Of a stretch of DNA of 53,858 nucleotides, positions 4,153 through 42,697 are shown one piece after another; position 1 is the stretch's first letter; every line of letters begins with the position of its first letter. The notes beneath the pieces are model-generated. The model ran no database searches, had not been told where the DNA came from, and saw only the letters and a program-made list of their open reading frames with translations. This DNA is from an uncultured Ardenticatenia bacterium (GTDB taxonomy: Bacteria; Chloroflexota; Anaerolineae; 4572-78; NAK82): the NCBI GenBank assembly GCA_937127125.1, contig CAKZLO010000065.1, positions 1 to 53,858 of the forward strand, given 5' to 3'. The translations under genes were made by a program, and so were the position numbers.

Positions 4153-4267
4153 GGATGGTCTGGCCGGGTGGATGCTTGGGACATTGTCCCGCGTATGATT
4201 GACAACCTCATTAGAGTGCACTACATTGTCTCTGAAAATGGTGAGTAAAGAAGCTAGTGGCCTCACT

Positions 4268-7200
4268 ATGGAATTCCACATCTCTCGCGTTGCCCGAGAT
4301 CGTTATCGCTTCGATGAGTCACTCTTCCAACTGAGCGGCAACGTCATCTTCGCAAACTTTCACGCCGCGCGGACGTTTGCTCAGCGGATCAATCGCACGC
4401 GCGATCTGGCCCGTTTTCCCGAGCAGGCTGTGCGCGCCGGCCAGCTGAATGCCATGGGGCTGATCGACGAGATCCTCCATTATGTGGTGGAGCTGTACCG
4501 GCAGCAGAAGAACCCAGAAGTAATGTCTCAGGCACGCGTCTGGCTGGAACAGCGCTTGGGGCATGAGGCGGTCGAGATGGCACTGCGCCGCTTCAGCGAA
4601 GAGTTCCCCCCGCTGGCGGTCTACCGACGCGAAATGGGACTGGACGAGTACCTGGCCGGCGAGACCGCCGGCGTGCCTCACCGCAACATCGCGTTGGAGG
4701 AGCTGCTGCTGCTCTGGTTGGCCAATGCCAACCCGGCCTTTGCGCCTTTTTTGGAGCTATTCGACGACGAGCACCTGGAATGCGAGACAGCTTATACACA
4801 AATCATCGCTGAGTTGCACGCATTCTTCGAGACGCAGCCTCGCTTTGGCCCGGATAACCAAAATTTGGTGGATATGTTGCGTAGTCCGGCCATCGCGGTG
4901 CCGTATTCGTTACCTGGCCAGCTGGAATATATCCGCATGCGTTGGGGCGCACTGTTGGGTCGTTACATCTTCCGGATGTTAAGCAGCCTGGATCTGATTC
5001 GCGAAGAAGATCGCCCTGTTTTCACTGGTCCGGGTCCGACGCGCGTGTATGAATATGCCGGGCTGGATCTGGAAGCGGAGCGCTTCAGCCCCGATCGCGA
5101 GTGGATGCCCCGTCTGGTGCTCATTGCCAAGAACACCTACGTCTGGCTCTACCAGCTATCGCGCAAATACCAGCGCCCGATCCATCGGCTGGATCAGATC
5201 CCCGACGAGGAGCTGGCAACGCTGGCCGAATGGGGTTTTAGCGGATTGTGGCTGATCGGTTTGTGGGAGCGCAGCCGTGCCTCACAGCGCATTAAGCAGC
5301 TGTGCGGCAACCCCGAGGCAGCCGCTTCGGCTTACGCCCTGTATGATTACCAGATCGCTGTCGACTTGGGTGGCGAACAGGCTTTCCTCGACTTGCGCCA
5401 TCGCGCATGGCGCTATGGCATTCGTCTCGCCAGCGATATGGTGCCGAATCACATGGCCATTGACTCGAAATGGGTCATCGAACACCCCGATTGGTTCATT
5501 GGCCAGGATTACAGTCCTTTCGCCAGCTACACCTTTAACGGTCCAGATCTCTCCCATGATGAACGCGTTGGCATCTTTATTGAGGATCATTATTACGATC
5601 GCAGCGATGCTGCGGTCGTGTTCAAGCGCCTAGATCGTTGGACGGGGGCAGTGCGTTACATCTATCATGGCAACGATGGCACCGGGATGCCGTGGAATGA
5701 CACGGCCCAGCTCAATTATCTGAAGCCTGAAGTGCGTGAGGCGGTCATCCAGCTCATCCTGGATGTAGCGCGACGCTTTCCCATCATCCGCTTCGATGCA
5801 GCGATGACGCTCACCAAGAGGCACTATCAGCGTCTCTGGTTCCCCGAGCCAGGTAGCGGGGGCGATATTCCCTCGCGGGCTGATCACGCCATGACACGCG
5901 CCGAGTTTGACGCCGCCATGCCCAACGAATTCTGGCGCGAAGTGGTCGACCGCGTCGCTCAAGAGGTCCCGGATACTCTGCTGCTCGCTGAAGCTTTTTG
6001 GCTGATGGAAGGCTATTTTGTGCGCACCCTCGGGATGCACCGGGTGTACAACAGCGCTTTCATGAACATGCTGCGCGATGAGGAGAATGCCAAGTATCGC
6101 AGCGTGATCAAGAATACGCTGGAATTTGACCCCGAGATTCTCAAGCGCTTTGTCAATTTCATGAACAATCCCGACGAGCGCACGGCAGTGGATCAGTTCG
6201 GGAAGGATGACAAGTACTTCGGTGTGTGTACCTTGATGGTGACCATGCCGGGCCTCCCTATGTTCGGGCACGGTCAGGTGGAAGGTTTCGCCGAAAAGTA
6301 TGGCATGGAGTATCGGCGCGCTTATTGGGACGAGCAGCCTGACGAGTGGTTGATCGAGCGCCACCAGCGCGAGATCTTTCCACTGTTGCGTCGCCGTCAT
6401 CTCTTCTCTGAAGTGCAAAATTTTCGACTTTATGACTTCTTCAATACAGATGGCAGCGTGAATGAGGATGTTTTTGCCCACTCGAATCGCTGCGGGGAAG
6501 AACGTGCGCTGGTGATCTACAACAACCGATTCGCCGAGGCGCGCGGTTGGATCCGCACCTCAGTCGCCTACTCTGCCAAGGGCGGCTCCGGGGATGAACG
6601 CCGTCTGGTGCAGGACACGTTGGGGCAAGGATTGGCTCTGCATAGCTCTCCGGGTTGGTTCTCCATATTTCGCGATCACGTCAGCGGGCTGGAGTATATC
6701 CGCGACAATCAGGGATTGTGCTCCCAAGGGTTGTACGTCGAACTAGGCGCATACAAATATCATGTATTCCTGGACTGGCGTCAGGTCCAGGACGACGCAA
6801 GCCAACATTATGTGCGTCTGACCGCCTATCTTGCCGGACGCGGTGTGCCGGATATCTCTGTGGCGATGCATGAGCTGCTTCTGCAACCGGTGTTGTTGAG
6901 CTTCGAGGCTCTACTAGAACCCCATCTACTGCGCCAGTGGTGCATAGACCAACCCGCCTGCACCAATGCGACATGGTCTGAGACGCTGCGGGGACGCCTC
7001 CGCGAGTTGCTTCGGACGGTCAAAGCTCATACCGGCGCCAATGGGGATGAGGAGATGGTCACCACAGGCGTGCAATGTGAAATGGAGATGGCTTGCCAGC
7101 TCATACAGGAAATACATGATCACTCACCCACGCTAGGACCAAGTTTCCGGGTGGCGTGCTCACCGAGTGATCCGCTGGTGCGCGCGACCCTGTATGGCTG

Positions 7201-7834
7201 GCTCATCGTGCATCGCCTGGCCCAGGTCACAGATGCGCACAACTATGCCACTCTCAGCCGCAGCTGGATAGACGAGTGGGGCTTGGGCAGGCGACTGGTT
7301 GAGGCATTTCGTCGCACCCTCGAGGTAGATGAGGCAGCAGCTGAGCGTGCGGTACAGGCAATCAAGTGGTTGACCTCCTATGGTGATTGGTGGCGTGCAC
7401 TGGACATCTCGTCTCTGCCAGTGGTCCACTCGCTGGCCGAGGCGACTCCCCCTATCGGCCAGTCTGGTACTGCGGAGACGACTGGGGAAGTGGCTGTCTC
7501 TGTTTCGGGCATCGCGATGCGCAACCTGCTGCATGGGTTGTTTGCCGACGGCGACGTACAACGATTTCTGCAGGTAAACCGCTATCAGGGCGTCTTGTGG
7601 TTCAACAAAGAATCCTTTGAGCAGTTTTTGTGGTGGCTGCGCCTAGTGGCACGAATTGGCCTCCGCTGTGACCCATTCGTTCCTGCTGGCGGAGCAGCTT
7701 CCAGGCTGGGCCAAGTTGAGGCCGTACTGCAACACTGGGAAAATGTGGCTGGTCGCTGCGGCTATCAGGTGGACAGGCTACTGGATGCTGTAGAGAGCTT
7801 TGAGCTGACCACTGGCACGGTGGGACAAAGCTGA
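4268..7834 (+). CDS. Very large GH13-family (alpha-amylase-like) protein
   Basis: About 1,188 residues, far longer than an ordinary amylase (450-650). A helical N-terminal part of about 280 residues precedes a GH13 barrel with region I DMVPNH (Asp390), region II IIRFDAA (nucleophile Asp510), region III LLLAEAFW (acid/base Glu575) and region IV NNPDE (Asp636). The three catalytic carboxylates are present, but the His normally preceding the region IV Asp is Pro635. A hydrophobic/helical C-terminal 400 residues follow, containing VNRYQGVLWFNKE. No signal peptide is seen, so it is probably cytoplasmic and acts on alpha-glucans, perhaps glycogen or maltodextrins. I placed the start at 4268 (MEFHISRVARDRYRFD) because the sequence upstream looks non-coding; ATG 4238 and an alternative codon at 4199 are in frame. 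Confidence 0.8.
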   Translation: MEFHISRVARDRYRFDESLFQLSGNVIFANFHAARTFAQRINRTRDLARFPEQAVRAGQLNAMGLIDEILHYVVELYRQQKNPEVMSQARVWLEQRLGHEAVEMALRRFSEEFPPLAVYRREMGLDEYLAGETAGVPHRNIALEELLLLWLANANPAFAPFLELFDDEHLECETAYTQIIAELHAFFETQPRFGPDNQNLVDMLRSPAIAVPYSLPGQLEYIRMRWGALLGRYIFRMLSSLDLIREEDRPVFTGPGPTRVYEYAGLDLEAERFSPDREWMPRLVLIAKNTYVWLYQLSRKYQRPIHRLDQIPDEELATLAEWGFSGLWLIGLWERSRASQRIKQLCGNPEAAASAYALYDYQIAVDLGGEQAFLDLRHRAWRYGIRLASDMVPNHMAIDSKWVIEHPDWFIGQDYSPFASYTFNGPDLSHDERVGIFIEDHYYDRSDAAVVFKRLDRWTGAVRYIYHGNDGTGMPWNDTAQLNYLKPEVREAVIQLILDVARRFPIIRFDAAMTLTKRHYQRLWFPEPGSGGDIPSRADHAMTRAEFDAAMPNEFWREVVDRVAQEVPDTLLLAEAFWLMEGYFVRTLGMHRVYNSAFMNMLRDEENAKYRSVIKNTLEFDPEILKRFVNFMNNPDERTAVDQFGKDDKYFGVCTLMVTMPGLPMFGHGQVEGFAEKYGMEYRRAYWDEQPDEWLIERHQREIFPLLRRRHLFSEVQNFRLYDFFNTDGSVNEDVFAHSNRCGEERALVIYNNRFAEARGWIRTSVAYSAKGGSGDERRLVQDTLGQGLALHSSPGWFSIFRDHVSGLEYIRDNQGLCSQGLYVELGAYKYHVFLDWRQVQDDASQHYVRLTAYLAGRGVPDISVAMHELLLQPVLLSFEALLEPHLLRQWCIDQPACTNATWSETLRGRLRELLRTVKAHTGANGDEEMVTTGVQCEMEMACQLIQEIHDHSPTLGPSFRVACSPSDPLVRATLYGWLIVHRLAQVTDAHNYATLSRSWIDEWGLGRRLVEAFRRTLEVDEAAAERAVQAIKWLTSYGDWWRALDISSLPVVHSLAEATPPIGQSGTAETTGEVAVSVSGIAMRNLLHGLFADGDVQRFLQVNRYQGVLWFNKESFEQFLWWLRLVARIGLRCDPFVPAGGAASRLGQVEAVLQHWENVAGRCGYQVDRLLDAVESFELTTGTVGQS

Positions 7835-40889: not shown

Positions 40890-42620
40890 TTACATCGATT
40901 CGGGCGCTGAGACGCCGATCAGGCGCAACGTGTTGGCCAATACAATCTTGGCAGCCTGCACCAGTTTCATGCGGGCGCGCCCGATCTCAGCGTGTCCAGC
41001 ATCTTCCGAGACAACGCGACACTCTTTGTAAAAAGCGTGGAACGCAGTTGCCAGCTCTTGCGCGTAGTGCGTCAGATGGTGTGGGCTGAGCGACTCGGCG
41101 CACAAGGCGACCGTCTCGGGCAAGCGCACCATCTGGCGAATGAGCGCCTGCTCAGCAGGATGGATTAGCAAGCTGACGTCGCCTCCTTCCGGCGAGAAGC
41201 CGCGTTCCCGGGCGTAGCGGAAGATGCTGGCGATGCGTGCGTGGCCGTACTGGACGTAGTACACCGGATTCTCGTTGGACTGTTGCACGGCCAAGGTCAG
41301 GTCGAGCTCCATCTGACTCTCGGCGGCGCGCGTCAGCAGCATGAAGCGCGTTGCGTCGGCGCCAATCTCCTCCACGACCTCGCGCAGCGTGATGATCTCA
41401 CCCGTGCGTTTGCCCATGCGGACCAGCTCACCGCCGCGCTTGAGTGTCACCAGTTGATAGAGTATAACCGTGATGCGATTAGGGTCGAGTCCCAGCGCGC
41501 GGGTGACCGCTTTCATGCGCGGCACATGTCCCTGATGATCAGCGCCCCAAACATAGATCGCCCAGTCAAATCCGCGCGTGACGAGCTTGTCCCATACGTA
41601 GGCGATGTCAGAAGCAAAGTAAGTCGGCCGGCCATCGGAGCGCACCACCACGTTATCTTTGTCCTGCATACTCCTGACGAGGGCCTCTGTCTGCTGTTCC
41701 TCAGTTGCTTGGTGGTCTCCGCCTGAGGATGTGTGGGGCGTCTCGGTGAACCACACGGCTCCATCACGATGCACCAGCCAGCCACCCGCGCTCAGTCGAT
41801 TGAAGACGAGGCCATAGATGCCATCCTCATAGAGGCTGCGCTCCGATTTCCAGCTGTCGAAGTGGATGCCCAACGCTGCTGCATCGGCCTGGATGCTCGC
41901 CAGCATGCGCTTCAGCCCTTCTTCGCGCAATGCAGTCAGAGCCTGACCTCGTTCCATAGTTAGGAAGCGTTCGCCGTATTCTTGGGCCAGCTGGTGGCCC
42001 ATCTCCACCAGGTAATTGCCGGGATACCCACCCTCCGGCAACGGCTCATCGCATCCCAGCGCTTGTGCGTAACGCGCATAAAGGCTGGCAGCGAAGAGCT
42101 CCACCTGTGTGCCTGTGTCGTTGATGTAATATTCGCGATGCACGCGCCAACCCGCTGCAGCCAGCACATTGGCCAGAGCGTCGCCCAGGACAGCATTGCG
42201 TCCCGAGCCGATCGTAAGCGGTCCGGTGGGGTTGGCGCTGATGTATTCCACCTGCACTGAGCGCCCTTTGCCCAGATCTAAGTGCCCAAAGCGTTCTCCT
42301 TCTGCGAGGATGACCTCCACCTGCTGGGTCAGCCATTGCGGCGACAGGGTGATGTTGATGAAGCCGGGGTGCGCTGCCTCCACCTTGCCAATGAAGGGTG
42401 CGGGTGGCATGTGTGCCACAACCCGCTCTGCGATGGCGATCGGGGCCATACGCGCGACACGCGCCAGAGTCATGCAGACGGGACTGGCATAGTCGCCAAA
42501 AGCTTCGTCTCGAGCGCGCGTGACGGGCACCTCCGGAAGCCCAAAGGCGGGCAACTCTCCTTTCTTCTGTGCTCTACGGATAGCTTCTGCGATCAACTGA
42601 GCGATGTCATCACGAACCAT
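40890..42620 (-). CDS. argS: Arginyl-tRNA synthetase with a degenerate HIGH motif
   Basis: 576 residues of class I ArgRS. The N-terminal Add-1 domain is followed by the Rossmann catalytic core, the KMSKS region and an anticodon-binding all-helical C-terminus with DALRP features ending NTLRLIGVSAPE. The usual HVGH motif reads T136-I-G-S139 in SANPTGPLTIGSGRNAVLGDALA, so both histidines are replaced. The KMSKS loop is likewise changed (LVRMGKRTGEI). The rest of the family is well preserved, so this looks like a real enzyme variant. The ATG at 42620 follows GAGGTG; the in-frame ATG at 42644 does not. It attaches arginine to its tRNA. Confidence 0.95.
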   Translation of the reverse strand: MVRDDIAQLIAEAIRRAQKKGELPAFGLPEVPVTRARDEAFGDYASPVCMTLARVARMAPIAIAERVVAHMPPAPFIGKVEAAHPGFINITLSPQWLTQQVEVILAEGERFGHLDLGKGRSVQVEYISANPTGPLTIGSGRNAVLGDALANVLAAAGWRVHREYYINDTGTQVELFAASLYARYAQALGCDEPLPEGGYPGNYLVEMGHQLAQEYGERFLTMERGQALTALREEGLKRMLASIQADAAALGIHFDSWKSERSLYEDGIYGLVFNRLSAGGWLVHRDGAVWFTETPHTSSGGDHQATEEQQTEALVRSMQDKDNVVVRSDGRPTYFASDIAYVWDKLVTRGFDWAIYVWGADHQGHVPRMKAVTRALGLDPNRITVILYQLVTLKRGGELVRMGKRTGEIITLREVVEEIGADATRFMLLTRAAESQMELDLTLAVQQSNENPVYYVQYGHARIASIFRYARERGFSPEGGDVSLLIHPAEQALIRQMVRLPETVALCAESLSPHHLTHYAQELATAFHAFYKECRVVSEDAGHAEIGRARMKLVQAAKIVLANTLRLIGVSAPESM

Positions 42621-42697
42621 GAACACCTCAACGCATGGATCCAAGGAACAGTTTGCTGTAATTTCTGGTTTCTCAACGCCTTGGAGTTTCTTTTCGC

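Follow-up and report, generated by a model that had tools for sequence, protein, structure and literature searches.

The HIGH motif (HxGH) is treated as a signature of class I aminoacyl-tRNA synthetases, and its first histidine is credited with some three orders of magnitude of rate; in several enzymes of the class, mutating it costs ~1000-fold (PMC10485003). In TyrRS, mutating either histidine lowers activity (work cited in PMC5919687), and a comparison of malarial and human enzymes reports the HIGH signature in all its class I proteins (PMC6366043). Natural departures from the motif have been described. Bacterial TrpRS has TIGN in the place of HIGH, a motif that continues to move together with the nucleotide (PMC10201369). 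Some IleRS2 enzymes carry a GXHH or AXHH motif of at least two origins, with reversion seen as well, which a 2023 report calls unrecognised before (PMC10485003). As for arginyl-tRNA synthetase (ArgRS), no account of a HIGH-less enzyme was found in a literature search that covered few subscription journals.

The gene analyzed here, argS, lies in a 53,858-nucleotide contig from an uncultured Ardenticatenia bacterium of the class Anaerolineae, phylum Chloroflexota (the whole stretch is referred to as the window). It encodes an ArgRS with TIGS in place of HxGH. With a probability of roughly 0.8, we read it as a working enzyme, predicted as such and the only ArgRS detected in its genome, from a lineage in which HIGH has eroded without loss of function.

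The argS gene and its signature motifs

The features of the locus are listed below. Residues are numbered from the alternative TTG start, so that TIGS occupies residues 144-147, equivalent to 136-139 when counted from the ATG.

40890..42620, minus strand: argS, arginyl-tRNA synthetase, 576 residues from the ATG at 42620
42644, minus strand: alternative TTG start of argS, 584 residues (open reading frame 40890-42644)
42345..42608, minus strand: ArgRS-specific N-terminal (Add1) domain (Pfam PF03485, residues 13-100, 73.9 bits)
42219..42233, minus strand: N138-P139-T140-G141-P142, conserved block immediately preceding the HIGH position, invariant in a 28-sequence alignment
42204..42215, minus strand: HIGH position, T144-I145-G146-S147 (normally HxGH), from the sequence and from alignment to ArgRS relatives and to the HIGH of the C. 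jejuni ArgRS
42195..42197, minus strand: N150, second-ranked covariation partner of residue 147 (MI-APC 8.7 SD, rank 62 of 149,331)
41457..41459, minus strand: Y396, at the end of the strand preceding the KMSKS loop, leading covariation partner of residue 147 (MI-APC 10.5 SD, rank 33 of 149,331)
41406..41417, minus strand: core of the KMSKS loop, M410-G411-K412-R413 (MGKR), from the sequence
40893..41255, minus strand: DALR anticodon-binding domain (Pfam PF05746, residues 464-584, 112.7 bits)

The translation of the 40890-42644 frame (minus strand), which contains ...VEYISANPTGPLTIGSGRNAVLGDALA..., scores 419 bits against the NCBIfam equivalog TIGR00456 (cut-off 261.65; residues 17-584), and the Pfam families Arg_tRNA_synt_N, tRNA-synt_1d and DALR_1 each score above their cut-offs. 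Its AlphaFold2 model (pLDDT 90.1) finds its best solved structural match in the C. jejuni ArgRS (3fnr, Z 38.2, rmsd 2.4 over 444 residues); the fifteen top-ranked structures comprise only ArgRS entries (Z 26.6-38.2), the last of them an ArgRS-GlnRS-AIMP1 complex. Combining a full-length family score, the Add1 and DALR domains and the ArgRS fold, the product of 40890-42644 is a complete arginyl-tRNA synthetase.

The canonical HxGH is absent from this protein, in which the codons ACG-ATC-GGC-TCG (42215-42204) encode TIGS. A preliminary description of this DNA, made from its letters alone, had noted the absence of both histidines and the intact family block upstream, SANPTGPL, and both observations stand. 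It had also read the KMSKS loop as MGKR, which is correct but ordinary. The loop, RMGKR, has its second lysine (K412) and an arginine for the first, as in many ArgRSs of this subtype, where it is typically xMSKR or similar; MGKR is found too in two ArgRSs of Geobacteraceae/Desulfuromonadales, and the CysRS of the source genome has KMGKS. The idea that MGKR is a defect linked to the loss of HIGH was therefore dropped, MGKR/MSKR variation being common. Several Gammaproteobacteria ArgRSs have an intact HIGH with MSTR in the KMSKS loop, the loop lysine being gone; the two signature motifs vary separately.

Copy number, selection and relatives

Searched with PF00750, with TIGR00456 and with the argS product as queries, the source genome, which is 95.17% complete, yields one argS; this was the check for a second copy that the preliminary description had proposed. 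The frame is open and internal stops are absent, and dN/dS within the genus is 0.04-0.05, an approximate value as dS is partly saturated. The gene is under strong purifying selection, in keeping with the earlier impression that it shows no decay. Both other genomes of the genus have TVGS at the HIGH position, in enzymes 87-90% identical to the TIGS enzyme, the family has TIGS, TIGS and PFGS, and xxGS is found throughout the order. The Thr and Ser codons of the motif differ synonymously between relatives. Because the motif recurs in genus, family and order with different synonymous codons, TIGS is not a product of chance or of sequencing error. PolA adjoins argS in the genus, in two further family members and, more remotely, in two other members of the class. 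Elsewhere in the window, the minus-strand segment 36790-39204 encodes a RACo-type corrinoid-activation protein adjoining a DUF1638 protein, and a plus-strand frame of 1211 residues (4199-7834) returns a weak alpha-amylase match (E 1e-7), its remainder being without a Pfam family at the threshold used.

A pseudogene, or the frame error in the assembly that the preliminary description had allowed for, can be practically dismissed: only the odd motif speaks for it, against the open frame, the low dN/dS and a motif common to separate genomes of the genus and the family in different codons. It is also very improbable that the protein is a non-charging paralogue, the genuine enzyme being encoded in the 5% of the genome missing from the assembly. 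Both catalytic histidines are indeed absent and the genome is a draft of 85 contigs, but 15 of the 25 genomes sampled in the order have one full-length argS match in one piece and none has two, the single-copy genomes including one of a single contig and another of 7 contigs; the protein also retains the complete ArgRS domain set and the conserved active-site columns. After the copy-number searches, the dN/dS estimate and the inspection of the relatives' motifs, a pseudogene, a frame error and a second copy were all judged unlikely. The TIGS protein is, almost certainly, the functional and sole ArgRS of its genome, as predicted from these features.

HIGH varies in SxNPTGPL-type ArgRSs across more than one phylum

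The HIGH position was compared in 367 ArgRSs of the subtype. The sequences are the best-scoring loci together with chosen stretches among the matches listed (124 for the class, the phylum and the E. coli-type ArgRSs, plus 60); since a subset of the matched genomes was sampled, the motif percentages describe this sample only, and the counts cover no genome having only an E. coli-type ArgRS. Left out of the counts are 15 duplicate loci, two short fragments, two Bacillota duplicates and four E. coli-type ArgRSs of the class, all four with an intact HIGH. The histidines are distributed as follows:

Source class, 133 sequences, 42 families represented: both kept in 2, the first alone in 76, the second alone in 8, neither in 47
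Rest of the phylum, 67 sequences from the searched genomes: both kept in 20, the first alone in 20, the second alone in 5, neither in 22
Bacillota sample, 88 sequences: both kept in 19, the first alone in 51 (HMGN, HLGN, HIGN), neither in 18
Named sequences, mostly of other phyla, 62 sequences: both kept in 45, the first alone in 12, the second alone in 2, neither in 3
Whole set, 367 sequences: both kept in 94, the first alone in 165, the second alone in 15, neither in 93

Within the order, 25 genomes were sampled, four of which have no match and one only a fragment lacking the motif; both histidines are absent in 20/20 sequences covering the motif, and all 20 have Ser147. The Bacillota ArgRSs with neither histidine have NVVN and similar motifs, from which the glycine is gone too, and this motif is further from HIGH than that of the TIGS enzyme. 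In five of them, with NVVN (or GVVN, NIVN, NVVS), residue 396 is mostly Leu, Ala or Thr. Seven Chloroflexota sequences from outside the source class, with TAAS, PVAS, PVAA, TVAF or TAVA, have likewise lost the HIGH glycine. One Bacillota genome encodes a pair of ArgRSs of this subtype that share 61% identity, both with HVGH. At least one histidine is missing in 273 of the 367 sequences, so that HxGH is treated here as the canonical form of the motif and not as defining ArgRS membership.

The notion that TIGS is peculiar to the source genome is not supported, given its counterparts in the whole order and the variety of HIGH forms that the class and other phyla display. A lineage-specific form, as the preliminary description had put it, holds insofar as the variant spans the whole order, and is far too narrow in that other phyla vary too. 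It had further considered that an established active variant across a known clade would make TIGS unremarkable; the variant is largely that, being clade-wide through the whole order, with an activity that is predicted.

In a FastTree phylogeny of the 367 sequences, computed after removal of the motif columns and of columns 150 and 396, at least 24 changes fall at position 144 and at least 14 at position 147. With strongly supported branches alone, the independent pairs that differ number 16-18 at position 144 and 10-12 at position 147, and parsimony permits loss and regain alike.

The other class I synthetases of the source genome have HMGH (Val), HIGH (Leu, Met, Cys and Gln), HLGH (Tyr), HLGN (Trp) and HVGG (Glu). 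As these motifs keep at least one histidine, the loss of both is found only in ArgRS within this genome, IleRS aside. CysRS has HxGH in all 19 loci read, from relatives and from the source genome, and E. coli-type ArgRSs from the same class have an intact HIGH, together with Tyr396, in 4/4. HIGH erosion is therefore a trait of one ArgRS subtype (SxNPTGPL, KMSK-like loop). In some families of the class (four genomes), an E. coli-type ArgRS with HIGH stands in for the usual subtype, which suggests gene replacement.

Residue 396 and the readings of the loss

Around the site, the 93 proteins lacking both histidines keep G141 (93/93), T140 (82/93), K412 (87/93) and R413 (83/93), and any histidine within residues 135-155 is found in two of them. 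A covariation scan (MI-APC) of 547 columns in 279 sequences, covering 149,331 pairs with no column preselected, returned residue 396 as the top partner of residue 147. Where residue 147 is something other than His or Asn, position 396 is occupied by Tyr or His in 151/158 proteins, versus 14/109 with His147; proteins with Asn147 mostly carry Met, Tyr or Leu there. The independent contrasts on the tree amount to ~4.6 for the link and 0.2 against (median sign-test p 0.125), and since the independent events are few, compensation between 147 and 396 is suggestive. The second-ranked partner, N150, was rejected: its mutual information is high, but paired tree contrasts gave no support for its coupling to 147 (0.1 for, 0.5 against). 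For the loss of the first histidine no column stands out, the best being R409 with ~4.7 pairs for and 1.2 against.

In the Bacillota sample, where the expectation was fixed beforehand, residue 396 is large (Y, H, F, M or W) in 51/69 proteins without His147 versus 1/19 with it; 18 of those 69 have no large residue there, the exceptions being mainly NVVN-like, and the outcome of this test is mixed. Since the E. coli-type ArgRSs pair Tyr396 with HIGH, Tyr396 may be an old permissive state that preceded the loss and not a response to it. The compensated active site that the preliminary description had implied is thus plausible, given the covariation of 396 with 147, on a number of independent events too small for proof.

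In the AlphaFold2 model, residue 396 closes the strand ahead of the KMSKS loop. Phe586 of IleRS1 presumably lies near the same strand end. Profile alignments to synthetases of the same genome place Asn of CysRS at 396, while the ValRS alignment starts at residue 398. The IleRS1 Phe586 stacks on the adenine (PMC10485003).

Arginine activation would still proceed by the normal class I route. Backbone groups of the helix tip, where Gly146 is kept, would bind the ATP phosphates together with T140 of NPTGP and K412 and R413 of MGKR. The role of the second histidine would be replaced, or made dispensable, by the Tyr or His that residue 396 contributes from the strand leading into the KMSKS loop; this compensation step is put forward tentatively. 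T144 and S147 may in addition donate hydrogen bonds, as Thr and Asn may in the TIGN of bacterial TrpRS.

ArgRS requires bound tRNA to activate arginine, as GluRS and GlnRS likewise require theirs for activation. The histidines may therefore be dispensable in this ArgRS subtype, the motif having drifted without compensation while the tRNA-bound site stabilises the transition state enough. This reading is a serious possibility, nearly equal to the account of a normal enzyme with Y396. It draws on the many forms of the motif, including HVGF, HFGG, PVAS, TAVA and VVVQ, which have little or no side-chain hydrogen-bond donor, on the number of changes at position 144 in a pattern allowing gains and losses, and on the lack of a compensating column that stands out for the first histidine. 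Against it weigh the tie between 147 and 396, the constancy of Ser147 in the order, and the GlnRS of the source genome, which depends on tRNA and keeps HIGH. We know of no inhibitor that would fit a further reading, in which the motif change confers resistance to a natural inhibitor of ArgRS or of its ATP site, in the manner of the IleRS2 GXHH motif and mupirocin. The changes recur in environmental bacteria, and for one class I enzyme an altered HIGH is reported to raise resistance up to 1000-fold at a mild catalytic cost (PMC10485003). Resistance is nevertheless improbable here, as the argS neighbourhood (IMPDH, VIT1, PolA) offers no resistance context, there is no second housekeeping copy, and the motifs, varied as they are, show no convergence on a single bulky residue such as IleRS2 has.

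The reading of a working ArgRS with an eroded HIGH has a bearing on the class as a whole. Because related enzymes across whole bacterial groups have lost both histidines, the textbook HIGH may be less indispensable than believed. A bolder proposal, which we regard as speculative and rather unlikely, is that large bacterial groups use a class I synthetase free of HIGH histidines, the nucleotide role of the second having moved to residue 396, and that HIGH is then one interchangeable option among several, which the class does not require. The value of the finding lies in a natural graded series, from HVGH through HxGS and TxGH to TIGS, PVAS and NVVN, which could reveal the contribution of each histidine and its substitutes. 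Such proteins should not be annotated as inactive, and HIGH is a poor filter in motif searches.

Compared with bacterial ArgRSs at large (TIGR00456; class I, subclass Id; e.g. C. jejuni 3fnr), the TIGS enzyme is alike in domain layout, fold and active-site blocks and differs in having TIGS for HxGH. Beside ArgRSs of the same subtype that keep both histidines, in which residue 396 is mostly Val, Ile, Ser, Ala or Thr, it has Tyr396. The GluRS of the source genome (HVGG) also lacks the second histidine, but keeps the first. Like the TIGS ArgRS, IleRS2 is a housekeeping class I enzyme that departs naturally from HIGH (PMC10485003); IleRS2, however, swaps the first and third positions, keeps two histidines and is tied to mupirocin hyper-resistance, whereas TIGS retains no histidine and shows neither Gly/Ala first nor His third and fourth. 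Bacterial TrpRS, a working class I enzyme, resembles the TIGS ArgRS in having Thr first and a residue other than His fourth (PMC10201369), although it belongs to another subclass, has a full KMSKS and carries Asn instead of Ser as the fourth residue.
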